From: Gammaproteobacteria bacterium
GTDB lineage: Bacteria; Pseudomonadota; Gammaproteobacteria; Steroidobacterales; Steroidobacteraceae
Direction: 5' to 3'
NCBI GenBank assembly: GCA_027315105.1
Contig: DAHUYP010000089.1
Coordinates: forward strand, 46,890 to 110,889
Length of the DNA stretch: 64,000 bases
The notes under the pieces are model-generated. The model did no database searches. It saw only the letters and a program-made list of their open reading frames with translations, and was not told the DNA's origin. Position 1 is the stretch's first letter; the number at the start of each line of letters is the position of its first letter. The position numbers and the translations under genes were made by a program. Below, in pieces: positions 14,623-37,070 of the stretch.

Positions 14623-15516
14623 TTAGTCCCGTGCGGGATTAGAGTCCGCGGTTAACAAAGATACCTCTTCTCCCTCTCTCGCCAAACCTCTTCCGGCATA
14701 TTCCTCGGGCGTCAGATCGCCCAGTGAGCTGTGCGGTCGCTCGGTGTTGTATTCGATCCTCCAGGCCTCGATGGCTCCTCGTGCATGTGCCATGGTGATG
14801 AACCAGTGCTCGTTCAGGCATTCGTCGCGAAACTTGCCGTTAAAGGATTCGATGTACGCGTTCTCGTTGGGTTTGCCGGGGCGGATGAAGGACAGATGGA
14901 CGTTGCGCTGATACGCCCAGGCATCGAGTACCTGGCCTTCGAACTCTGGCCCATGGTCAACGGTGATCGATCGGGGCAGGCCCCGCGTGTCGGCCAGCCG
15001 CTCGAGCACGGCTTTGACTCGGGTGCCGGTGATCGAAGTGTCGACTTCGAGTGCCACACACTCACGCGTGCAGTCATCGACGATCGCCAGGCAGCGCAGT
15101 CGTCGACCATCGGCCAACCCGTCGGATACGAAGTCCATCGACCAGCTGCGATTGGCAGCCGTAGGCTTTGGCAACGCCTTGCGCTCAAAGGGTCCAATGC
15201 GTTTACGCTTGCGACGCCGCACCGCAAGGCCGGCTTCTCGGTACAGCCGGTAGGTTCGCTTGCGGTTGATCTGCCAGCCTTCGCGATGCAGTAACACGTG
15301 GATACGTCGGTAACCGTATCGACGCTTCACCGCGGCGATCTCCTCGATCCGAGTACGCACCGCACCGCACTCCGGTCGCCGGCTACGATAGCGGTACAAC
15401 GAGCGCGAGATATGCGCCAGCCCGCACGCGCGCGTCACACCGAAGTCCCGTTCCGTCATCAGCACGGTCACCGCTTCGCGCCTCGCCTGCGGGCTCACCA
15501 TCTTCGGCCTAGAAGA
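14623..15516 (-). CDS. IS3-family transposase OrfB (DDE integrase core)
   Basis: RSWSMDFVSDGL, ITVDHGPEFEGQ, YIESFNGKFRDECLNEHWF, HSSLGDLTPEEY; overlaps orfA at MVSPQARREAV. Confidence 0.88.
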   Translation of the reverse strand, partial: SSRPKMVSPQARREAVTVLMTERDFGVTRACGLAHISRSLYRYRSRRPECGAVRTRIEEIAAVKRRYGYRRIHVLLHREGWQINRKRTYRLYREAGLAVRRRKRKRIGPFERKALPKPTAANRSWSMDFVSDGLADGRRLRCLAIVDDCTRECVALEVDTSITGTRVKAVLERLADTRGLPRSITVDHGPEFEGQVLDAWAYQRNVHLSFIRPGKPNENAYIESFNGKFRDECLNEHWFITMAHARGAIEAWRIEYNTERPHSSLGDLTPEEYAGRGLAREGEEVSLLTADSNPARD

Positions 15517-15761
15517 TCCTTCAGAGCCGCCTTGTCCAGCTCCGCCTCTGCCAGCAGCCTCTTGAGCTTGCTGTTCTCCGCCTCGAGCTCCCTCAGGCGC
15601 CTCGCCTCCGACACTGTCATCCCGGCGTACTTCGCCTTCCAGTTGTAGAAGGTCGCCTCGGATACCCCGTGGCGCCGGCACAGCTCCTTCGTCTTGGCAC
15701 CGGCTTCGGATTCCTTCAGCACCGCAATGATCTGTTCTTCGGTGAACCTCTTGGATTTCAT
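15495..15761 (-). CDS. IS3-family transposase OrfA
   Basis: MKSKRFTEEQIIAVLKESEAGAKTKELCRRHGVSEATFYNWKAKYAGM. Confidence 0.9.
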   Translation of the reverse strand: MKSKRFTEEQIIAVLKESEAGAKTKELCRRHGVSEATFYNWKAKYAGMTVSEARRLRELEAENSKLKRLLAEAELDKAALKDLLGRRW

Positions 15762-17710: not shown

Positions 17711-17794
17711 TCAGACCCGCAAGGCTGCCCGCCTGTACGCATGACGTCAAGCGTAATACGGAGCAACCGGGCGTGCAGTGGCGCCATTCGAGGT

Positions 17795-18424
17795 CTGCTC
17801 GGCCGCCGCGACGTCTTCTTCCACCGCGATCCGGCCGAAGTCGTTCCGGAGGGGCTCGATCTGGCTCGGGCCAGACTGTACCGGCAAATCGGCCGGGTTC
17901 AATTCCCCACCGTGCTGTTCGAGCTCGATGCCTGCGTGTACTTCAGTTGGCAACTGCTCGGTCGCGAGCCCATAGACGCGCAGGAACTGCTGGCCGTGTA
18001 CGCGGCGCTGCTCGCCGCCGGGCCCGATCTGGCCTCCCGCGGTATTGCGACCATGATGCGCGGCGTGCGCGAGAGCACCGTGCGTCGTTACATGCGGCTC
18101 TTCGAAGCCGAGCCCGCCCTGCGAGCGGCCAACGAGGCGCTGGTGAGGTTCGCCAGGACTCGCCCCATGGTCGAGTACTGGGACAGCGGTTATGCCGCCT
18201 CTTCGGATCTGATGAGTCTGGATGCCAGCACCTGGAAGCTGCAGGAGGTGATTGACCGACGCCAAAGGCCAGGACGCGCGGTTCCCTCCGACACTATCCT
18301 CGCACACGTCGCTCCAGTCGCCTTCTCGCAGATCAACTTCCGCGCCATCTACCGCTTCCCCATCGACCAATACCTCGACCAAATCCCGCCATCAGGTGGC
18401 CGGCGGGACGCCGTCAACGCGTGA
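17795..18424 (+). pseudogene. Tn3-family transposase (TnpA), internally deleted fragment
   Basis: IGRVQFPTVLFELDACVYFSWQLLGREPIDAQELLAVYAALLAAGPDLASRG...WDSGYAASSDLMSLDAS then QRPGRAVPSDTILAHVAPVAFSQINF. Confidence 0.65.
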
Positions 18425-20772: not shown

Positions 20773-21774
20773 ATGAACGATAAGCCCTACCGCAGGCCGG
20801 ACATCGCCGGTGCCGGTGACTACGAGCCGATGAAGGAACCGCGCTACGCGGAAATCGCCACTTTCATGCGCGCGCCGCTCGCCGGCAGCCTCGAGAACGT
20901 CGATATCGGCCTGATCGGCGTGCCGACCGATCTCGGCGTGACCAACCGACCCGGAGCCCGGCACGGGCCGCGCGAGATACGCAACGCCTCGAGCCTGATG
21001 CGCTCGTTCAATCTCGCCCTGGGCATCAACCCGTACGAACTGTGCCGCATCGCCGACCTGGGCGACGTGCGCCTGCCGCATCGGTACGACCTGGAGAAGC
21101 AGGTCGAGGACATCGAGGCGTTCTATCGCAAGATCGTCGCGGCCGGCGTTCGGCCGGTCAGCGCCGGCGGCGACCATTCGATCACCTATCCCATCTTCAG
21201 GGCGCTGGCGGCCGACGCCCCCATCGGCATGGTGCACATCGATGCTCACACCGATACCTGGGGCGAATTCTACGGCTCGAAGTTCACGCACGGAGCGCCG
21301 TTCCGACTGGCCGTCGAGGCGGGATTGCTGGACCCGAAGCGCACCATCCAGATCGGAATTCGGGGTGGCCAGAATTTCATGGACGGTATCGAGTTCTCGC
21401 AGTCCCATGGCATGCGCGTGGTATTCATGGATGAATTCGCCGCCCTCGGCGTCGAGCGGGTCATCGAGGCGGCGCGCCGCGTCGTCGGCGACGGGCCGAC
21501 CTATATCTCGTTCGACGTGGACGGCCTCGATCCGGTCTATGCCCCTGGTACCGGCACGCCTGAAGTCGGCGGCATCACCACGCTGGAGGCACTGCGCCTG
21601 CTGCGCGGCCTGCGCGGCCTGAACCTCATCGGCGGCGACGTCGTCGAGGTGGCGCCGCCGTACGACCAGACCGGCAACACCGCGCTGGTCGGCGCCACCA
21701 TGATGTTCGAGATTCTGTGCCTGATCGCCGACCGGCATTTCGGCGCCGCGCGCCGCCCGCCGGCACCGCCCTAG
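20773..21774 (+). CDS. Agmatinase/guanidinobutyrase-type ureohydrolase
   Basis: SAGGDHSITYPIF, HIDAHTDTW, SFDVDGLDPVYAPGTGTPEVGG Mn-binding motifs. Confidence 0.9.
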   Translation: MNDKPYRRPDIAGAGDYEPMKEPRYAEIATFMRAPLAGSLENVDIGLIGVPTDLGVTNRPGARHGPREIRNASSLMRSFNLALGINPYELCRIADLGDVRLPHRYDLEKQVEDIEAFYRKIVAAGVRPVSAGGDHSITYPIFRALAADAPIGMVHIDAHTDTWGEFYGSKFTHGAPFRLAVEAGLLDPKRTIQIGIRGGQNFMDGIEFSQSHGMRVVFMDEFAALGVERVIEAARRVVGDGPTYISFDVDGLDPVYAPGTGTPEVGGITTLEALRLLRGLRGLNLIGGDVVEVAPPYDQTGNTALVGATMMFEILCLIADRHFGAARRPPAPP

Positions 21775-22602: not shown

Positions 22603-24057
22603 CTATGCGCCCAGCTGCCCTGCCGCCTCGATCCGACCGTCGCGGTACGAGTGCGAGCGCTTCGCGAGCCAGTAGTAGGCCGGCGAGGTGGCCGCGAGAC
22701 CGACGATCCAGGACAGGTCCACTCCCCCCAGCGTCTGCGCGATCGGGCCGGTATAGAGCGGCGAGGCAATGAACGGCAATTGCACCAGTATTCCGAACAC
22801 GTAGCACTCCACCGCGGCCACGTTGACGCGGCCGTAGATGCCGCCGTCCCGCCGGAAGAATGAGCCGATGTCGTAGCGCCCGTGACGCAGCAGATAGTAG
22901 TCGACCAGATTGATGGCGGTCCACGGCACCAGCACGTACAGCAGCAGCAGGATGAAATCGGTGTAATTGTCGAGGAACGAGTCCTTGCCGAGCAGCGCTC
23001 CCGCCAGCGACAGGCCGAACAGCAGCAGCGAGATGACGGTCCGCGCCGAGGCTCCGGGCGACCAGCGCGGAACCAGTGTCTGACCGAACGTCAGCGTTGA
23101 CAACGCGCCGCAATAGAGATTCATCGCATTGGCCGTGGCGACGCCGATCGAAAAGACGATCAGCACCAGCGGCGCCAGGCCCTGCGTGAGCGCCGCAAGG
23201 CCGGCGACCAGGCTGCTCTTGTCCGAGGCGAGGCCCACCGTCGCGCCCAGGATCATCGGCAGCAGCGAGCCGAGCGTGCAGCCCCAGTAGCTGGCCCAGA
23301 AGGCCGAGCGCACTCCGGTTTCGCGCGGCATGTAGCGCGAGTAGTCGGAGACGTACGGCGCGTAGGCGATCTGCCACAGCGCCGCCGCCGAGATCGTGCC
23401 CAGCAGCCCGGGTACGTTGAAGGAATTGCGGCCCAGGAAGTTGGCCGGCAGTCCATGTATCCAGACGATCCAGGCGAACGTCAGCAGCAACACGATGCCC
23501 GACACGTAGGTCATCACCCGCGCATAGGTGTGAATGAGGTCATGGCCGAAGATGGCTGCGATGAGACTGATCACACCCACGAGTGCGATGCCGGGCGCAT
23601 CGGACAGGCCCGGCGCCATGCTCGCCAGGGCCTCGCCGCCGAGCACCAGATTCGAGGCCAGGAACCCGACATACATGACGATCACGATCCCGACCACGAG
23701 CAGCGATCCGAACGAGCCGAATTGGCCGCGCGTCTGGATCATCTGCGGCACGCCGAGCGTCGGGCCCTGCGCGGCATGCAGCGCCATGAAGATCGCGCCG
23801 ACCATGTTGCCGAGGATCAGGCCCACGACCGCCCATCCGAACGGCAGCGCGAACACCGTCACCGCGAGCCCGCCCGTGACGATGGTCAGCAACATGAGGT
23901 TCGAGCCGAACCAGACGGTGAACAGATCCGTCGCCTTGCCGTGGCGCTGGTCGAGCGCGATCGGTTGGATCGTGCTGATTTCGAGGCGCGTCGCGTGTTC
24001 CCGGTTGCTCACGTCGGCTGGTCTCCAGAGTTGATCCGATAGCTCGGATGCTGACAC
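22603..24057 (-). CDS. NCS1-family nucleobase/cytosine-like permease
   Basis: 12-TM-like protein; ALWQIAYAPYVSDYSRYMPRETGVRSAFWASYWG; VPWTAINLVDYYLLRHGRYDI. Confidence 0.88.
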   Translation of the reverse strand: MSASELSDQLWRPADVSNREHATRLEISTIQPIALDQRHGKATDLFTVWFGSNLMLLTIVTGGLAVTVFALPFGWAVVGLILGNMVGAIFMALHAAQGPTLGVPQMIQTRGQFGSFGSLLVVGIVIVMYVGFLASNLVLGGEALASMAPGLSDAPGIALVGVISLIAAIFGHDLIHTYARVMTYVSGIVLLLTFAWIVWIHGLPANFLGRNSFNVPGLLGTISAAALWQIAYAPYVSDYSRYMPRETGVRSAFWASYWGCTLGSLLPMILGATVGLASDKSSLVAGLAALTQGLAPLVLIVFSIGVATANAMNLYCGALSTLTFGQTLVPRWSPGASARTVISLLLFGLSLAGALLGKDSFLDNYTDFILLLLYVLVPWTAINLVDYYLLRHGRYDIGSFFRRDGGIYGRVNVAAVECYVFGILVQLPFIASPLYTGPIAQTLGGVDLSWIVGLAATSPAYYWLAKRSHSYRDGRIEAAGQLGA

Positions 24058-25416: not shown

Positions 25417-25727
25417 CGGTTGCGGGGAGCTATCGCGTCCCCGGGACGATCTCCCGTGCAGGAGAACACCCCGGACGCAGCGTTGATATCTCCTCGCAGA
25501 TGACATGGCTGCGTCGTGCTGTTCGGGAGATCACGCGCTGTGGAGACAACAGGCTTCCTGTCTCGGTCAATCCGTCCGCTCTTTTCGCCCCTGCCGGGCG
25601 CCGCCGCATGCTGCCGCGGTGCCGGTCAGGTCGCGATCGATCCATAACTACAGATCCATAACTACCAACGGGTGTGCCCAACGTCGTACAGCTTCGCGAT
25701 CGTGCGAATTCATCAGAGGGATCATCA

Positions 25728-28349
25728 ATGACGTCACGTGTTCGCGCAAAAACGCCCCCGGCCATTGCAAGGAAGCGCCGAGTGCGTCCGGTTGAGAAAT
25801 TCACGACCGTCACGGCCGCGGTGCTCACTGCGCTGTACGGGACGCACGCCTACGCGGACAACACCGCGGGCACCGATGAGACCGGCACCGGCGCGAGCCT
25901 GGCCGAGGTCGTGGTCACGGCGAGCCGCCGCGAAGTCTCCGCCCAGGACCTGCCGATCAGCATCACCGCGGTGTCCGGCACCGATCTGGAGAAATCCGGA
26001 ATCCAGGACATCGCGGGTCTCGCGCATTCGATGGCCGGCGTCAACTTCACCGACAAGGGCCCGTTCGACGGCGTCAACGGCTCTACGCTGATCATCCGGG
26101 GTCTGAACAGCGAGGGCACCGCCGGCCAGCTCGCGCTCGCCTCGCCGGTCGTGCCGCCCGTGGCCACCTACGTCGACGATACGCCGCTGTTCTTCAACCT
26201 GCGGCTGCAGGACCTGGATCACGTCGAGGTCCTGCGCGGCCCGCAGGGCACGCTGTACGGCTCCGGTTCGCTCGGCGGCACCGTCCGCTTCGTCCAGAAC
26301 GCTCCCGATCCGTCCGCCTTCGATGCCAAGGCCGAGATCGGCATGAGCGACACCGCGCACACGCATGCGCCGAACGAGGACGTCAGCGGCATCCTCAACC
26401 TGCCGATCACCGATACCCTGGCGGTGCGCATGAACGCCGGCTGGAGCTACGACGCCGGCTTCATCAATCAGCCGAACCTGTACGTACTCGATTCCTCGGG
26501 CGCACCGGCATCCGCCCAGCCCGGCAACCTCTTCAGTCCGCCAGAGAAGTACGCCAAGGACGGCACCAACGCCTACGACTATCGCGATTTCCGTATCTCG
26601 GCGCTGTGGAAGCCCAACGAGGGCTTCCACGCGCAGCTGTCCTATTACTATCAGGGCGAAACGGCCAACGGCTTCCCGTACGCAGCGATCAATGGCGCCG
26701 CCTACAATCAGCCCATCAGCGCGTTTACGCAGGCGCCGGCGGCTGCAGGAGGCCCGTACTCCAATCCGGCGTTGCTGTCGCAACTCTACAACTCAGCGGT
26801 GCCCGCCGGCGTGGACTCGCTGTCGAACGCCGACAACAGCCTGGAAGGTGCCCACGACGAGGTCAACCTGGTGGCGTTGATGATGCAATACGACATGGGT
26901 TTCGCGACCCTGACCTCGGATACCTCGTGGGCGCACCACGTCAACCAGTCATACAGCGACCTCACCGCGCTGTACACCAACTTCTACTTCTTCCAGAGCC
27001 TCTACGGCCAGAATCCGCGCAGCTTCGTGCAGGGTCGCGATGCCTGGATCGACACGCCCTGGACGCAGGAGATTCGCCTGGTATCGAAGCCGGGTGGCGT
27101 CGTGGACTGGGTGGGCGGACTGTTCTACAAGAGCGAGACTTCCGCCATCCAGGAGCACGAGTTCTACCCCGGCTATCTCAACTTCTACAACGGCTGCGCG
27201 CCGGTCTACGGCCAGAGCGGCGGCAACGGCACCACCCCCTCGTACTGCGGCGTCGGCGAGACCGCCTACACGCCGGGTGTCAACACCTCTATCGACGGCA
27301 TCCCGATCGTCAAGGACCAGGCCTATATCGGCGACTTCGAGACCAAGTACACCGACCTGGCGGCATTCGGCGAGGTCACCGGGCATCTGACCGACGCGTG
27401 GAGCGTCACGGGCGGCACACGCATCTTCAGGCAGACGATATCGCAGTCGCAGCAGACCGGGCTGCTGTTCGATGCCGGACCGTACTTCGGCTCCGCGCCC
27501 CCGGTCGCCAACGCCTCGCTGAGCGATTCGTGGCGCAAGGTGCTGTGGAAGCTCAATACCGCCTATCAGCTCAACCCGACCAACCTGGTCTATGCCACCT
27601 GGTCGCAGGGATTTCGCCGCGGCGGCGTCAATGCTTTGCCGCCGAGCGAGCTCGGCGGAACCTATCAGACGCCGGCGGCGCTGACGACGCTGCAGCCGGA
27701 CACCGCCGACAACTACGAAGTCGGCGCCAAGGGAACGTTGCTGAATCGCTTTCGCTATTCCGTGGCCGCCTACGACATCCAGTGGCACAACATCCAGGAA
27801 GGCGTACAGTTGACGCCGCTGGTCCTGCCGGCATCGCTCAACATCGGCGAGGCCTTCAGCCGCGGCGTGGAAGCCGAACTGTACGCCGTGATCACGCGCC
27901 ATCTCGGAGCGCAGCTCGACTACACCTACGATCAGACCAAGCTGACGGCGCTCAATCCGCTGTTCGTGACGCCCAACGTGGCCGTGCCGCCGCCGCCGGT
28001 CGGCACGGCGCTGCCCGGAACGCCGAAGACCAGCGTCGCGCTCGGCCTGGAGTACGGCCACGTGGAGTTCGCCGGCGGCGAGCTGCGCTATGCGATCAAC
28101 GGTCACTACCAGAGCGCGGTGCTGCCGGCGCTGTCGACCACGGTGCCGACCACGGCCGGCTACGCGATGTTCGATACGCGGCTCAGTTTCTCGCGCGCGC
28201 ACTGGACCGAATCGCTGTACGTGGACAACCTGACCAACAACCTGGGCATCATGTCCTACTCGGATCCGGGCGTTTACGGCAATCGCTACCAGGCGATCGT
28301 CTCGCAGCCGCGCACGATCGGGTTCACCGTGGGGTATTCGTTCAAGTAG
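25728..28349 (+). CDS. TonB-dependent receptor
   Basis: Plug LAEVVVTASRREVSAQDLPISITAVSG; RLQDLDHVEVLRGPQGTLYGSGSLGGTVRFV; C-terminal aromatic GFTVGYSFK. Confidence 0.93.
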   Translation: MTSRVRAKTPPAIARKRRVRPVEKFTTVTAAVLTALYGTHAYADNTAGTDETGTGASLAEVVVTASRREVSAQDLPISITAVSGTDLEKSGIQDIAGLAHSMAGVNFTDKGPFDGVNGSTLIIRGLNSEGTAGQLALASPVVPPVATYVDDTPLFFNLRLQDLDHVEVLRGPQGTLYGSGSLGGTVRFVQNAPDPSAFDAKAEIGMSDTAHTHAPNEDVSGILNLPITDTLAVRMNAGWSYDAGFINQPNLYVLDSSGAPASAQPGNLFSPPEKYAKDGTNAYDYRDFRISALWKPNEGFHAQLSYYYQGETANGFPYAAINGAAYNQPISAFTQAPAAAGGPYSNPALLSQLYNSAVPAGVDSLSNADNSLEGAHDEVNLVALMMQYDMGFATLTSDTSWAHHVNQSYSDLTALYTNFYFFQSLYGQNPRSFVQGRDAWIDTPWTQEIRLVSKPGGVVDWVGGLFYKSETSAIQEHEFYPGYLNFYNGCAPVYGQSGGNGTTPSYCGVGETAYTPGVNTSIDGIPIVKDQAYIGDFETKYTDLAAFGEVTGHLTDAWSVTGGTRIFRQTISQSQQTGLLFDAGPYFGSAPPVANASLSDSWRKVLWKLNTAYQLNPTNLVYATWSQGFRRGGVNALPPSELGGTYQTPAALTTLQPDTADNYEVGAKGTLLNRFRYSVAAYDIQWHNIQEGVQLTPLVLPASLNIGEAFSRGVEAELYAVITRHLGAQLDYTYDQTKLTALNPLFVTPNVAVPPPPVGTALPGTPKTSVALGLEYGHVEFAGGELRYAINGHYQSAVLPALSTTVPTTAGYAMFDTRLSFSRAHWTESLYVDNLTNNLGIMSYSDPGVYGNRYQAIVSQPRTIGFTVGYSFK

Positions 28350-28377: not shown

Positions 28378-29535
28378 ATGAACAGCGTACAGATCCTCGA
28401 ACGCCTGATCGGCTTTCCGACGGTCAGCCGCGACTCGAACCTGGCGCTGATCGAATACGTACGCGACTTTCTGTCGGCGCGCGGCGTGGATTCGAGGCTC
28501 TATCCGGACGCGAGCGGGCGCAAGGCCAATCTGTATGCCTGCGTCGGCCCGTCGGAGCGCGGCGGGATACTGCTGTCCGGGCACACCGACGTGGTACCGG
28601 TCGACGGCCAGCGATGGTCCTCCGATCCGTTTCGGCTGCAGGAGCGGGGCGCACGCCTGTTCGCGCGCGGCGCGGCGGACATGAAGGGCTTCCTGGCCTG
28701 TGCCCTCAGGGCCGCGGGCCTCGCGGCCGCGCGGCCGCTGCGCCTGCCGCTGCAGCTCGCCTTCTCGTACGACGAGGAGGTCGGCTGTCTCGGCGTGCGC
28801 TCCCTCATCGACGACATGTCGCGCTGGAGCCATCGGCCGGCGTTCTGCATCGTCGGCGAGCCGACCATGCTGCGCACCGCCGTGGGACACAAGGGCAAGA
28901 CCGCGCTCAGAGCGACCTGTCATGGCCGCGCGGCGCATTCCGCCGCTCCGGATCGCGGCGTGAACGCGATTCACATGGCGGGGGATCTGATCGGGCACAT
29001 CCGGCGCCGGCAGGCGGGCATTGCGCACGGCGGCGCGCGCGATCCGGCCTACGAGGTCCCGTACACGACGCTGCACGTCGGCGTGATTCACGGTGGCACG
29101 GTGCTGAACATCGTCCCGGCCCGCTGCGAGCTCGAATTCGAGATCCGCAACCTGCCGGCCGATGATCCGGCAGCGCTCGTGAGCGCCATCCGGGCGGACG
29201 CCGCCGCCGTCGCCCGCTCGATGCACGGCGACTGCGACGCCGGCGGCGACGACGTGCGCATCGACTTCGAGCTCGTCCACGAATATCCGGGTCTCGACAC
29301 GCCGTCGGACTCGCCGGTGGTGGAGCTGGCGGCCGCCCTGACCGGCAACCGGGAGCGCATCAAGGTGGGCTTCGGCACCGAGGGCGGGCTGTTCAGCGGC
29401 CGGCTCGGCATTGCGACCGTGGTCTGCGGCCCCGGCTCGATCGATCAGGCCCACAGGAGCGACGAGTTCGTGGCGCTCGATCAGCTGCAGCGCTGCGACG
29501 CGATGATGGATTCGCTGCTCGATCGGCTGGCTTGA
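28378..29535 (+). CDS. M20-family deacylase (ArgE/acetylornithine deacetylase-like)
   Basis: ILLSGHTDVVPVDGQRWSSDPF, ARGAADMKGFLACAL, SYDEEVGCLG. Confidence 0.9.
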   Translation: MNSVQILERLIGFPTVSRDSNLALIEYVRDFLSARGVDSRLYPDASGRKANLYACVGPSERGGILLSGHTDVVPVDGQRWSSDPFRLQERGARLFARGAADMKGFLACALRAAGLAAARPLRLPLQLAFSYDEEVGCLGVRSLIDDMSRWSHRPAFCIVGEPTMLRTAVGHKGKTALRATCHGRAAHSAAPDRGVNAIHMAGDLIGHIRRRQAGIAHGGARDPAYEVPYTTLHVGVIHGGTVLNIVPARCELEFEIRNLPADDPAALVSAIRADAAAVARSMHGDCDAGGDDVRIDFELVHEYPGLDTPSDSPVVELAAALTGNRERIKVGFGTEGGLFSGRLGIATVVCGPGSIDQAHRSDEFVALDQLQRCDAMMDSLLDRLA

Positions 29536-29614: not shown

Positions 29615-31159
29615 ATGATCCGAACCGGCCGGCAGTACCTCGATTCGATCCGCGATACGCGCGAGGTCTACATCAACGGCGAGCGCGTCAGGGACCTGGC
29701 GAAGCATCCGATGTTCAAGCCGCTGATCGACATCCGTGCCCGCATCTACGACCTGCAGCACGAGGCCGCGACGCGCGACATGCTCGCCTACCAGGACGGC
29801 GGCGAATGGCACGCCGTGGCGAACAAGCTGCCGCGGACGCAGGAAGACTGGTGGAACAAGCGTCGCGCGACCGACACGGTCCTGGAGGCCATCGGCGGCG
29901 TCGTGACGCGGGTCGGCGACGAGACCGTCGGCGAGATGTGGTCCCTGTTCGACGGACAGGACGTTCTGAACGAGGTTGATCCCCAGTTCTCCGCCAACAT
30001 CCGCCGCCACATCGGCGCGGTGCTGCACGCCGATCCGTTCCACGTCTCGGCCAACACCGATCCGAAGGGCGATCGCTCCAAGGCCCCGCAGGACCAGGAT
30101 CCGGACACGCTGCTGCACGTGATCAAGGAAACCGATGCCGGCATCGTGGTGCGCGGAGCGAAGTACGAGACCGCCGCCGCCTACGCCAACCAGGCCTTCA
30201 CCAAGCCCACCAACGCCAACTGGGGCAACCAGGCGCTCTCGGACTACGCGGTTGGATTCATCTGCGACTTATCCTCGCCGAACCTGAAATTCATCTGCCG
30301 CACCGGCTTCGCCGGGCGCGCCTGCGCGGCCGACTATCCGCTGGCCAACAGATTCGACGAAGTCGACGCGCTGGTCATCTTTGACGATGTGCTGATCCCC
30401 TGGGAGAACGTCCTGTTCTATCGGCACACCAGAGCGGCGTCCTTCATACGGGCCACGCTGCATCGATATTCCGCCTTCGCGTTCGTGCAGCGCAATCTGA
30501 AGCTGGCGGACATGATGATCGGTGCGGCGCTGTTCAACGTCAGGCAGACGGGGCTCGACCGACAGCAGGCGGTGCAGGAGAAGCTCGCGCAGCTGGCGGT
30601 GTACCGCGAGGGCATCAATGCCCATCTGACCGCGGCCGTCGCGCTGGCGGAGAGAAGTCCTGCCGGACTGCTGATGCCGAACCAATCGCTGTTGTATTCC
30701 GGGCGGGTCCTGGCCTGCTCGCAGCTGCACGAGATGATGCACGTCGCGCGCGAGCTGTGCGGCGGCCAGATCTGCATCACGCCGGACAAGGCCTCGTTCG
30801 AGGCTCCGGAGACCAAGCCGTGGCTGGACAAGTATTACTGCGTCAACGACAGCTGGGCGGCGGAGGACCGCCGCAAGCTGCTGGCGTTCGCGCGCGACCT
30901 GCTCAACTCCGACTATGCCGGCCATCGGCTGACGTTCCAGTTGTTCGCGCAGTCGCCGCCGTTCTTCCATCTCAATGCGGTCTACCGCAACTTCGACTGG
31001 GACGGGCCGCTCGATTTCGTACGCAAGGCCGCGGACCTGTCCGAGCGGGTGATGCCGGGCGGCGGCCGCGCAGCGGGCGATCGGGCCATCAGGCAGTGGT
31101 TCGAGTCGCAGCCCGGTGCCGCCGCGGCGCCGTCGACCACGGCCGGAGCCGCGGCGTGA
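29615..31159 (+). CDS. HpaB-family FAD-dependent monooxygenase (4-hydroxyphenylacetate 3-hydroxylase/PvcC-like)
   Basis: RTGRQYLDSIRDTREVYINGERV, DVLIPWENVLFYRH, HEMMHVARELCGGQICITP. Confidence 0.9.
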   Translation: MIRTGRQYLDSIRDTREVYINGERVRDLAKHPMFKPLIDIRARIYDLQHEAATRDMLAYQDGGEWHAVANKLPRTQEDWWNKRRATDTVLEAIGGVVTRVGDETVGEMWSLFDGQDVLNEVDPQFSANIRRHIGAVLHADPFHVSANTDPKGDRSKAPQDQDPDTLLHVIKETDAGIVVRGAKYETAAAYANQAFTKPTNANWGNQALSDYAVGFICDLSSPNLKFICRTGFAGRACAADYPLANRFDEVDALVIFDDVLIPWENVLFYRHTRAASFIRATLHRYSAFAFVQRNLKLADMMIGAALFNVRQTGLDRQQAVQEKLAQLAVYREGINAHLTAAVALAERSPAGLLMPNQSLLYSGRVLACSQLHEMMHVARELCGGQICITPDKASFEAPETKPWLDKYYCVNDSWAAEDRRKLLAFARDLLNSDYAGHRLTFQLFAQSPPFFHLNAVYRNFDWDGPLDFVRKAADLSERVMPGGGRAAGDRAIRQWFESQPGAAAAPSTTAGAAA

Positions 31160-31166
31160 GCCGCGC

Positions 31167-32357
31167 TTGAGCGCATCGAGTTCCAACCCGGCGGCGGCGC
31201 CCGACCCGGCGCTGCGACAGCAATTCCTGCTCGGCATGAGCCACGCGGCCTGCACCGTGAATGTCGTGACGACCGACGGCGCCGCGGGCCGGCATGGCGT
31301 CACGGTGTCGGCCATGGTCTCGGTCTCTGCCGATACGCCGCAGCCGACGCTGCTGGTCTGCATCCATCATCAGAGCCCGGTGGTGGCGGCGCTGCTCGAG
31401 AACGGCGTGTTCTGCGTCAACGTGCTGCGCGAGGACCAGGCGCACATCTCCGACCGCTTCGCCGGCCGCGACGGCGTTCGCGGTGCCGCGAAGTTCGATT
31501 GTGCGCGCTGGACGACACAGGTCACCGGCGCGCCGCGCGTGGTCGACTCACTGGTGGCGTTCGATTGCCGCGTCACGGCCAGCGAGCGGGTGGGCTCGCA
31601 CTTCGTCGTCTTCGGTTCGGTGCACGATATCTTCGTCGCCGGCGCGGGCGCGCCGCTGATCTATGCCAATCGCGCCTACGGTGTGCCGCAGCAGTTTCAT
31701 GCGCGCGCCGCCTGGGCCGACCGTCCCGCGCCGGCCGGCGGCTCGCTGGCACTCGGCTGCTTCCAGACCTTCGCACCCTACGTGGTGCCGGCACTGCTCG
31801 CGCGCCTCGCCCGGATGCATCCCGGCATGGCGCTCACGCTGCTCGAGGCCGACCAGGGCCGTCTGCTGGCCGGTCTTCGCAGCGGCGACCTGGACGTCGC
31901 GCTGCTCTATGATTTCGGGCTCGGCGCGGACATCGACCGGGAGCCGCTGGCCGAGCTCTCGCCCTATGTGCTGCTGCCGCAGGGACATGCGCTCGCGACG
32001 AGCGGCGCCATCGCGCTCGAAGCGCTGCTGCCCGAGCCGCTGATCCTGCTCGACCTCGAGCCGAGCCGGGATTACTTCCTGTCGCTGTTCCGCAATCGCG
32101 GCTTCGAGCCGCGTATCGGCCATCGCACCGGCTCGTTCGAGATGGTGCGCGGCCTGGTCGGGCATGGGCTCGGTTACAGCCTGCTGGCCACCAAGCCCGC
32201 CAACAGCATGTCCTATGACGGCCGCGCCCTCGTGACGCGGCCGCTGACGGCCGCGGCGCGCAACAGCCGCCTGGTGCTCGCGAATCTCGCGCGCCGGCCG
32301 ATGAGCGCGAATGCGCAGCTGTTCGCGGGCCATTGCCGCGCATTCTTCGCCGCCTGA
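31167..32357 (+). CDS. Flavin reductase domain fused to LysR-type substrate-binding (PBP2) domain
   Basis: N-part FLLGMSHAACTVNVVTTDGAAGRHGVTVSAMVSVS...ICIHHQSPVVAALLENGVFCVNVL; C-part GCFQTFAPYVVPALLARLARMHPGMALTLLEADQGRLLAGLRSGDLDVALLYD; single ORF, probable TTG start. Confidence 0.85.
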   Translation: MSASSSNPAAAPDPALRQQFLLGMSHAACTVNVVTTDGAAGRHGVTVSAMVSVSADTPQPTLLVCIHHQSPVVAALLENGVFCVNVLREDQAHISDRFAGRDGVRGAAKFDCARWTTQVTGAPRVVDSLVAFDCRVTASERVGSHFVVFGSVHDIFVAGAGAPLIYANRAYGVPQQFHARAAWADRPAPAGGSLALGCFQTFAPYVVPALLARLARMHPGMALTLLEADQGRLLAGLRSGDLDVALLYDFGLGADIDREPLAELSPYVLLPQGHALATSGAIALEALLPEPLILLDLEPSRDYFLSLFRNRGFEPRIGHRTGSFEMVRGLVGHGLGYSLLATKPANSMSYDGRALVTRPLTAAARNSRLVLANLARRPMSANAQLFAGHCRAFFAA

Positions 32358-32383: not shown

Positions 32384-32800
32384 GTGCATACCCGCATACG
32401 CAAGTTCAATACGCGCGATACCTATCCGGAGCAGCAGCTCGACAACGATCTATGCCAGGCGGTCGTGGCCCGCGGCCGCACGGTGTTCGTTCGCGGCCAG
32501 GTCGGCCAGGATCTCGACACCGCGCTCAATGTCGGTGTGGGAGACCCCGCGGCGCAGGCCGAGCAGGCGATGAGGAACGTCCGGCAGCTGCTGCGCGAAG
32601 CCGGCGCTACGCTCGAGCACGTCTGCAAGATCACGATTTACCTGACGGATGCGCGATTTCGCGAACCCGTCTATCGGACCATCGGCCGCTGGTTGCAGGG
32701 CGTGCATCCGGTGTCGACCGGCATCGTCGTCGCCGGCCTGGCGCGCCCCGAGTGGCTCGTGGAAGTGGACGTCATCGCCATGATTCCGGATGAGGCCTGA
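32384..32800 (+). CDS. RidA/YjgF family protein
   Basis: FVRGQVGQDLDT...QAEQAMRNVRQLLREAGATLEHVCKITIYLTD...PEWLVEVDVIAMIP. Confidence 0.92.
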   Translation: MHTRIRKFNTRDTYPEQQLDNDLCQAVVARGRTVFVRGQVGQDLDTALNVGVGDPAAQAEQAMRNVRQLLREAGATLEHVCKITIYLTDARFREPVYRTIGRWLQGVHPVSTGIVVAGLARPEWLVEVDVIAMIPDEA

Positions 32801-32803
32801 GCG

Positions 32804-33478
32804 GTGACGTTCTCCATCGTCGCCCGCAGCGCGGATGCGCAATTGTTCGGCGTTGCGCTCGCCTCCTCGTCGCCGGCGGTCGCGGCCCGCTGCGCGCATG
32901 CCCGCGCCGGCGTCGGCGCGGTGGCGACCCAGAACGTCACCGATCCGTCCCTGGGGCCGCACATGCTGCAGGCGCTGCACCGCGGCGCCACGGCCCGTTC
33001 GGCGGTCGACGACAGCGTGCGCGCCACGCCCTTCGGCGCCTACCGGCAATTGCTGGCGGTCGGCCGGGAGCACCCGCCGGCCGTTCATTCAGGCGCCCAC
33101 TGCCTCGGCATCGTCGGTGCGGCCACCGGCACGCACGCCGCGGCCGCCGGCAACCTGCTGGCCGGGCCCGATGTCCCGCGGGCGATGCTCGGCGCTTTCG
33201 ATGCCGCCGGCGGGCATCTGGGCGAGCGCCTGCTGCAGGCGCTGCGCGCCGCCGTGGCGCACGGCGGCGAGGCCGGACCGATTCGTTCCGCGGGCCTGCT
33301 GATCGTGCGCGAGGTCTCCTGGCCGATCGTCGATCTGCGCGTCGATTGGACCGATGCGGATCCGGTGGCTGTGCTGGCGGCGATTTGGGATCGCTACGCA
33401 CCCCAGATCGACGACTACGTGCGCCGCGCAGTCGATCCGGTGCGCGCGCCGGGCTTCGGCGTGCCCGGCAATCCGTGA
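32804..33478 (+). CDS. DUF1028 family protein (Ntn-hydrolase-like)
   Basis: TFSIVARSADAQLFGVALASSSPAVAARCAHARAGVGAVATQNVTDP; GTG start. Confidence 0.88.
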   Translation: MTFSIVARSADAQLFGVALASSSPAVAARCAHARAGVGAVATQNVTDPSLGPHMLQALHRGATARSAVDDSVRATPFGAYRQLLAVGREHPPAVHSGAHCLGIVGAATGTHAAAAGNLLAGPDVPRAMLGAFDAAGGHLGERLLQALRAAVAHGGEAGPIRSAGLLIVREVSWPIVDLRVDWTDADPVAVLAAIWDRYAPQIDDYVRRAVDPVRAPGFGVPGNP

Positions 33479-35414: not shown

Positions 35415-37070
35415 ATGCAACGCAAGATCTGGAACTGCACCGCTTTGGCCCTGCTGATGATCGGTGCGTTGACCGCCATCGGAGCTGCGATCTTGCTCGA
35501 GCGCGGATTCCGCGCCACCACCGAGCCTTCCCGGGTCGAACTCTTCGTCGCGCGGAGCTTGCGCAATCTAGCCATTCCAGCCCGCGAGCGAGCCGCGCAA
35601 AATCCGCTGGCCGCGAACGCCGAGAACCTGCAGGCTGGCCGTGAGGAGTTTCTCGCACGGTGTGCGGGTTGCCACGGGCCCGATGGCTCTGGCCTGACGC
35701 CCGTCGGCCGCAACCTCTATCCCCGCGTGCCGGATCTGCGCGCAAGCGTGACGCAGGGCCTGACGGACGGAGAGATCCGTTACTTCATCGAGAATGGCGT
35801 GCAGCTCACAGGCATGCCTGCGTGGGGAAACATCTACCGGCACTCGATCGACAGGAGCTGGAATCTCGTCCTGTTCATCCGCAGTTTGAGACATCCGGTC
35901 GGCCTGGAGGCCGCTGCCCTGACCGCGAGCCTCGACAGCGCACACTATGTCGGCTCGCACGCCTGCGAGAGATGCCATACCGGGATCTATCAGCGCTGGC
36001 AGGCGACGCCGATGGCCAACATCGTGCGCGATCCGCGTACGCACCCCGAGGCCATCATCGCGAAGCTCGATACGAATACGGTCAGCCCGTTCACACTGGA
36101 CCAAGTGGCCTTCGTTTATGGAAGCCTGTGGAAGCAGCGCTTCTTCACGAAGATCGGTGAGGACTACTACCCGCTGCCCGTCCAGTGGGAGATCGCGAAT
36201 CATCACTGGAGCAAGTATGCGGTGCCCGCCAGCGGCGCGGACTGGTGGGCGAAATTCTATCCGCCCGATAACCTGCATCGAGCGACAGGCCCGACCTGTG
36301 ATGGCTGCCACTCCGTCGGCTACGATATCCACACCAAGCAGGTCGCAGAGTGGAATGTGGGCTGCGAGCGCTGTCACGGCCCGGGCAGTACCCACGTGTC
36401 GGACCCACGGATCGGCAACATCTTCAACCCCGCACGCGCGGGTTACGTCGCCGCGAGCGACACGTGCATCCAGTGTCATTCGCAGGGGCGACCGTTGGCC
36501 GACCAGATCGAGGGCAAGTACTACGATTGGCCGGTGGGCTTTCGAGTGGGCATGAGGCTCCAGGACTTCTGGCAGCTCGAAGCGCACACCCTCGGGCAGA
36601 CCGACTTCTACTACTTCGCCGACGGTACGGCGCACAAGAACCGCATGCAGGGCAACGACTTCGTGCAAAGCGTCATGTACCGACGCGGCATCACCTGCTT
36701 CGACTGTCATGACGTGCACGGCACCGGCAATTATGCGCAGCTGCGCAAGCCCCCCGAGACGCTGTGCCTGGACTGCCACGGTCCGCTGTCAGCAAATGGT
36801 CCACGGACCGCGACGCTCGAGGAGCACACGCACCACAAGGCCGGCAGCCCCGGCAGCCAGTGCGTGGTCTGCCACATGCCGGCGATCGAGTCGGAAGGCG
36901 TTCCGAATAGCTTCGTGCACGCCCACACGTTCAGGTTCATTACCCCGGCCATGACCGTGCGCGACGGAATTCCAAATCCGTGTACCTCGTGTCACACCGA
37001 GAAGTCACCGACATGGGCCACCGATCGGCTGCGCCAATGGGCGGAGCGCTCGCCGTGGCGAGTCGAATAG
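35415..37070 (+). CDS. Multiheme c-type cytochrome, 9 CxxCH motifs
   Basis: CAGCH, CERCH, CDGCH, CERCH, CIQCH, CFDCH, CLDCH, CVVCH, CTSCH counted in the translation. Confidence 0.9.
   Translation: MQRKIWNCTALALLMIGALTAIGAAILLERGFRATTEPSRVELFVARSLRNLAIPARERAAQNPLAANAENLQAGREEFLARCAGCHGPDGSGLTPVGRNLYPRVPDLRASVTQGLTDGEIRYFIENGVQLTGMPAWGNIYRHSIDRSWNLVLFIRSLRHPVGLEAAALTASLDSAHYVGSHACERCHTGIYQRWQATPMANIVRDPRTHPEAIIAKLDTNTVSPFTLDQVAFVYGSLWKQRFFTKIGEDYYPLPVQWEIANHHWSKYAVPASGADWWAKFYPPDNLHRATGPTCDGCHSVGYDIHTKQVAEWNVGCERCHGPGSTHVSDPRIGNIFNPARAGYVAASDTCIQCHSQGRPLADQIEGKYYDWPVGFRVGMRLQDFWQLEAHTLGQTDFYYFADGTAHKNRMQGNDFVQSVMYRRGITCFDCHDVHGTGNYAQLRKPPETLCLDCHGPLSANGPRTATLEEHTHHKAGSPGSQCVVCHMPAIESEGVPNSFVHAHTFRFITPAMTVRDGIPNPCTSCHTEKSPTWATDRLRQWAERSPWRVE

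Follow-up and report, generated by a model that had tools for sequence, protein, structure and literature searches.

Introduction

What does the effector domain of a LysR-type regulator do at the C-terminus of a flavin reductase? This question is raised by a single open reading frame (ORF) in the 64,000-nucleotide stretch of gammaproteobacterial DNA analyzed here (the window). When the reductase of a two-component monooxygenase runs without substrate, NAD(P)H is wasted and peroxide is formed. The substrate of a single-component FAD hydroxylase itself promotes reduction of the flavin, a control that two-component systems lose because their reductase does not see the substrate. The reductase C1 of Acinetobacter baumannii is a well-studied case of a substrate-sensing reductase and, with its MarR domain, is to our knowledge the sole ligand-gated flavin reductase. 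C1 is autoinhibited by this C-terminal MarR domain, and substrate enhances its flavin reduction at least 30-fold (PMC10816480).

A single ORF joins two folded domains

The ORF occupies positions 31167-32357 of the plus strand, starts with TTG (an alternative in-frame GTG lies at 31116) and is uninterrupted along its whole length. Its N-terminal half matches Pfam Flavin_Reduct (PF01613; residues 24-172, positions 31236-31682 of the plus strand) with 113 bits against a cutoff of 27. Its C-terminal half matches LysR_substrate (PF03466; residues 190-393, positions 31734-32345 of the plus strand) with 130 bits against a cutoff of 28, and a linker of about residues 173-189 separates the two. The Pfam scan gave no HTH_1 match in the ORF, which thus lacks the N-terminal DNA-binding helix-turn-helix (HTH) domain that marks a LysR-type regulator. 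Scores against the NCBIfam equivalogs RutF (135 of 254.75 bits) and HpaC (109 of 205.95) stayed under both cutoffs. Stand-alone HpaC/RutF-type reductases (PF01613) have the catalytic domain in common with the fusion, to which a ligand-binding domain (LBD) of 200 residues is added.

AlphaFold2 returned two confident domains, with pLDDT below 50 at residues 168-183, and the linker is disordered by this model; how the domains pack was not confidently predicted (pTM 0.54). By Foldseek, the N-terminal half resembles CobR-type flavin reductases, and the matches of the C-terminal half are LysR effector domains, the best being that of the Pseudomonas regulator HinK (3fzv/6m5f). An earlier note on this DNA had described one ORF composed of a flavin reductase and a LysR effector domain with no HTH, directly behind an HpaB-type oxygenase gene. 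Pfam, AlphaFold2 and Foldseek bear out this architecture, and the gap to the oxygenase gene is 7 nt. The note had also named what would speak against it, namely a C-terminal half that is not PBP2-like in structure or a frameshift concealing two genes. Neither was found: the structural matches are LysR effector domains, the frame is intact, and the same single-ORF fusion recurs at 47 other loci.

The fusion is widespread and both halves are under selection

A survey with one genome per species gave 48 related loci. The fusion forms one intact ORF at 44 loci of species-representative genomes (L001-L044) and at three plasmid loci (L062, L065 and L066); L045 and L046 are split and L047 is truncated. 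It occurs in Alpha-, Beta- and Gammaproteobacteria, at 47 loci besides the window, and identity to the window protein ranges from 78% to 37%. The 44 intact genome loci and three plasmid loci rule out a frameshift or assembly artifact as the origin of the fusion. A search of the open-licence literature found no earlier description of a fusion between a flavin reductase and a LysR LBD.

The reductase domain is kept across the 48 fusions, among which the top residue has a mean frequency of 0.78 over the reductase, against 0.60 over the LBD and 0.40 over the linker. Conservation that is high in both domains and low between them is expected of two folded domains and a loose linker. Pairwise dN/dS of the LBD is 0.04-0.18, the highest value coming from the pair of the window and L001, indicating that the LBD is not decaying. 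Both the reductase half and the LBD half are under purifying selection. A vestigial LBD, which we also considered, is ruled out by the low dN/dS together with the conserved positions. The tree of the flavin reductase domain is weak, with long branches, and on its own is no evidence of a single origin.

As the interdomain arrangement was not predicted by AlphaFold2, the LBD could be a structural or docking module, serving dimerization or contact with the oxygenase and having no ligand-dependent role. We regard this as improbable. Conservation of P204, P208, S323, E325, R328, G334-G336 and D351-G352, together with a HinK signature described below, suggests that the binding pocket has been kept, and in other genomes the oxygenase works with stand-alone reductases.

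Several loci depart from the common form. In Paracoccus cavernae (L046:8003-9135) a frameshift, either a sequencing error or the mark of a pseudogene, splits the fusion. One Arenicellales chromosome carries two copies (L013 and L018), both distant from its HpaB-like gene. Plasmid pAA02 of Aminobacter aminovorans encodes a flavin reductase-LysR LBD fusion of 37% identity (L066:7989-9167). Its operon is a different one, which also codes for an acyl-CoA-dehydrogenase-like protein, a nitrilase, another flavin reductase and a protein resembling glutamine synthetase; it possibly represents another pathway with the same design.

The fused effector domain resembles that of HinK

When the fused LBD was compared with PDB sequences by phmmer, HinK came first (3fzv, 1.8e-47; 6m5f, 2.2e-47), followed by 2ql3 (3.5e-32) and, after a large fall, by OxyR as the next LysR protein (5.6e-13). 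The entry 6m5f, with 3fzv the top Foldseek match, carries the title HinK. Identity between the window LBD and HinK is 41%, and 41 of the 55 strongly conserved LBD positions are identical in HinK. In an LBD tree of moderate support and arbitrary root, the fused domains cluster together (92/84); they fall with HinK and are separate from the LysR proteins of most fusion clusters. Twelve positions, including P299, E325-M326-V327, G329, Y350 and D351, are common to fused LBDs and HinK and are not found in most other cluster LysRs. Fused LBDs share about 31% identity with cluster LysRs versus a mean of 38% with HinK. Both identity and tree thus leave the idea that the fused LBD is a recent copy of an adjacent LysR unsupported. 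Both sequence and fold mark the fused LBD as HinK-like, with HinK its closest relative among LysR LBDs. Conserved motifs and the fold are common to the fused LBD and HinK of P. aeruginosa (PA0218). HinK, however, is a DNA-binding regulator with an HTH, whereas in the fusion the effector domain follows a flavin reductase and has no HTH.

LysR proteins oligomerize via their effector domain, and 17 of 48 loci contain, besides the fusion, an ORF of LysR size that has a related LBD (the HTH was confirmed in the one scanned). Both facts count for a reading in which the main role of the fused LBD is that of a transcriptional partner or decoy, which forms oligomers with the cluster's HinK-like LysR and tunes transcription or links it to flavin redox state, without gating the reductase. 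We regard this reading as very improbable. Within the window genome, Burkholderia HinK has its best match in the fused LBD. A close HinK-like LysR that possesses an HTH was not found there, other LysRs reaching at best 28-30% over comparable length. Many other loci lack such a regulator too, and the fusion is still kept. That fused LBDs are nearer to HinK than to the cluster LysRs is a further point against a partnership of this kind.

In Pseudomonas, HinK is the regulator of hinFLHG and responds to imidazole-4-acetate (ImAA), which arises as an intermediate when histamine is degraded (PMC8231116). Because the LBD is HinK-like, HinK responds to ImAA and the operon is of the hin type (see below), ImAA becomes a candidate ligand of the fusion. 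The likeliest ligand of the fused LBD is ImAA or a close analogue, through which the LBD would gate flavin reduction, as suggested by its relatedness to HinK and by analogy to C1. An identity of 41% to HinK is insufficient to fix the ligand specificity. The affinity of HinK for ImAA, reported as 1.56 mM (PMC8231116), is weak, and this is a point against gating by ImAA.

The fusion lies in a hin-type cluster

In the window, a co-directional run on the plus strand comprises genes for a TonB-dependent receptor (25674-28349; orthologues in L001 and L002), a HinG-like deacylase of the ArgE/M20 family (28378-29535), an HpaB-like group D flavin monooxygenase (29615-31159; PF11794 and PF03241), the fusion, a HinL-like enamine deaminase of the RidA family (32384-32800) and a DUF1028 protein that is HinH-like by position (32804-33478). 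The fusion and RidA genes are 26 nt apart, and the RidA and DUF1028 genes 3 nt. Upstream lie genes for an NCS1-type permease, a candidate transporter of the pathway (22603-24057, minus strand), and for a carbon-nitrogen hydrolase of the nitrilase/amidase family, a possible accessory that is also near the cluster in L001 (24096-25070, plus strand). A simple scan, which carries little weight, detected no promoter-like site.

In P. putida, HinF is an FAD monooxygenase acting on ImAA (EC 1.14.13.5), HinL is an enamine deaminase, and HinH and HinG are amidases (PMC6467879). On plasmids of Arthrobacter, Leisingera, Klebsiella and Burkholderia there are clusters in which the genes are ordered NAD(P)/FAD-dependent oxidoreductase, RidA, DUF1028 and then ArgE-like or M20, with a LysR and a dodecin gene interposed in Leisingera. 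A LysR, an NCS1 permease, an aldehyde dehydrogenase, an aspartase and an amine oxidase are variously found near these clusters. The Burkholderia plasmid cluster (L071) has a LysR and an NCS1 permease together with ArgE, DUF1028, RidA and the NAD(P)/FAD oxidoreductase. As the LBD of this LysR shares 81% identity with that of HinK, we infer from context that the oxidoreductase is HinF.

Orthologues of the Burkholderia RidA, DUF1028, ArgE-like and NCS1 proteins are present in the window with identities of 65, 49, 51 and 48%, respectively, and the HinK-like LBD is a further link to hinFLHG. Where the Pseudomonas cluster has the single-component HinF, however, the window has the HpaB-like oxygenase and the fused reductase. 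No single-component monooxygenase of the HinF type was found in the window genome (a MAG that is 86.7% complete). The window operon is thus a hin-type cluster in which HinF is replaced by an HpaB-like oxygenase and a fused reductase. Aspartate ammonia-lyase genes adjoin four HpaB-type clusters (L014, L025, L057 and L062), as expected if the pathway product is aspartate. Elsewhere in the window genome there are homologues of aspartase (43%) and aldehyde dehydrogenase (51%).

The oxygenase partner and its substrate

The HpaB-like oxygenase, the proposed replacement for HinF as ImAA monooxygenase, scored 231 of 480 bits against the equivalog for 4-hydroxyphenylacetate 3-monooxygenase (HpaB), which is under the cutoff. 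Key residues of TtHpaB are R100, Y104 and H142 (PMC10816480). R100 is kept in the HpaB-like proteins, and E takes the place of Y104 and S that of H142 in all 44 aligned sequences (about 32 distinct loci). These replacements make p-hydroxyphenylacetate or another phenol an unlikely substrate.

The hin-type HpaBs (identity of at least 56%) stand clear of other HpaBs, which reach at most 37%. They are paired with a fusion in the window, Paracoccus and Sinorhizobium, and lie beside stand-alone reductases in Aminobacter, Rhizobium, Caballeronia, Halomonas and Bacillus, indicating that the LBD is an addition. In Parasedimentitalea and Pseudohalocynthiibacter no reductase is nearby, and an FAD oxidoreductase is also present. 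The earlier note had advised looking for the same fusion next to HpaB homologues elsewhere, and the search was productive. An HpaB-like partner was found at the fusion locus in 21 of 44 fusion genomes and elsewhere in the genome in nine more, 30 in all, versus 2 of 290 further genomes from the class to which the window belongs (Fisher p = 1e-29, a guide only as the two samples differ in taxonomy). Nine of the remaining fusion genomes have a HinF-like single-component enzyme of at least 62% identity.

An HpaB-like enzyme and a single-component HinF-like one coexist in several genomes, in two cases within one cluster (L061 and L063), so the HpaB substrate may be a related imidazole rather than ImAA. 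This coexistence counts for a rather unlikely alternative, in which the LBD does gate the reductase but senses something other than ImAA, be it a further intermediate, an imidazole acid that is methylated or otherwise related, or some other N-heterocycle. This alternative would also be consistent with the OYE-like oxidoreductases and Rieske oxygenases near some fusions, with the diverged fusion in the unrelated operon of L066 and with the weak binding of ImAA by HinK. Opposed to it are the set of RidA, DUF1028, ArgE, NCS1 and HinK-like components in common with HinF clusters, and the location of aspartase, the end-product enzyme of the ImAA route, beside several HpaB-type clusters.

Some Rhodobacteraceae have a Rieske oxygenase gene abutting the fusion, and HpaB was not found in their genomes, indicating that the oxygenase partner is not fixed. 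In some genomes a Rieske oxygenase may be supplied by the fused reductase, which may so serve more than one type of oxygenase. A gene for a Rieske oxygenase alpha subunit lies directly upstream of the fusion, abutting it or overlapping by a few bases, in L015, L016, L019, L021, L022, L029 and L035, several of which belong to genomes that lack the HpaB-like enzyme. In a Pseudolabrys MAG (L020:5417-9191) the fusion is near a divergent HpaB homologue, 26% identical to that of the window and not of the hin type.

A substrate-gated reductase as the favored reading

Binding of ImAA or a close analogue remains our favored reading, in which the fusion is an allosterically gated flavin reductase of a two-component monooxygenase whose HinK-derived LBD senses the oxygenase substrate; we regard this as moderately probable. 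The N-terminal domain would reduce free flavin with NAD(P)H, and the C-terminal domain, derived from a HinK-like LysR by removal of its HTH, would bind the oxygenase substrate, ImAA or a close analogue such as an N-methylated imidazole acid. Only with substrate present would the LBD release or activate flavin reduction. Reduced flavin would then pass to the adjacent HpaB-like oxygenase for hydroxylation of the imidazole ring, and the RidA, DUF1028 and ArgE-like enzymes would carry the product towards aspartate. In this scheme we infer the identity of the ligand, the gating and its direction, and the substrate of the oxygenase. The earlier note had suggested, from the MarR domain of C1, that the LBD gates the supply of reduced flavin by substrate; the HinK-like LBD, the response of HinK to ImAA and the hin-type operon lend this support, short of proof.

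Like the fusion, C1 (HpaC) of the A. baumannii p-hydroxyphenylacetate hydroxylase (PDB 5zyr, 5zc2) joins an N-terminal flavin reductase to a C-terminal effector domain of a transcription factor. Both have as partner the oxygenase of a two-component system, and the fusion gene adjoins its oxygenase gene. They differ in that C1 is biochemically characterized and senses a phenol through a MarR domain, whereas the fusion has a LysR effector domain of the HinK type and is partnered by an oxygenase lacking two phenol-site residues. The same logic as in C1, with a HinK-type domain instead of MarR, would be the simplest reading. By this analogy the design of a ligand-gated reductase is already known from C1, and the novel element would be a LysR effector domain on a flavin reductase.

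More tentatively, and as something a little short of probable, we propose that a flavin reductase once captured the pathway's transcriptional sensor domain, of HinK type and specific for ImAA, in a single event. The two-component imidazoleacetate monooxygenase replacing HinF would thereby have regained substrate-gated use of NAD(P)H, and the same metabolite would control both transcription and the flux through the enzyme, by way of homologous domains. If gating is true, the LBD restores a substrate control normally missing from two-component systems, and the fusion is a second, independent solution to the substrate-sensing reductase, with a different sensor fold and spread over many proteobacteria. 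It would also have a nameable ligand and predict the genes of a two-component ImAA monooxygenase. LysR effector domains would then be recruitable as enzyme regulators, which could be useful in the design of gated reductases.

Other features of the region and of related plasmids

The pyrrole-2-carboxylate and homarine pathways were considered as context for the cluster, and searches of the open-licence literature gave nothing relevant. An arginase-family (ureohydrolase) gene near the cluster (20773-21774, plus strand) could encode a formimino-hydrolase of the imidazole pathway or an unrelated agmatinase. Two transposase-like ORFs lie upstream of the cluster, one integrase-type by eye (14623-15681, minus strand) and one matching a Tn3 DDE domain (17741-18424, plus strand). 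An ORF rich in CxxCH motifs (35415-37070, plus strand) resembles a multihaem c-type cytochrome. DUF1028 matches occur in 105 Klebsiella plasmid records. One Klebsiella plasmid (L070) carries, near insertion sequences, a hin-like cluster with a HinK-like LysR (57% identical to that of Burkholderia), a GMC oxidoreductase and an aldehyde dehydrogenase.
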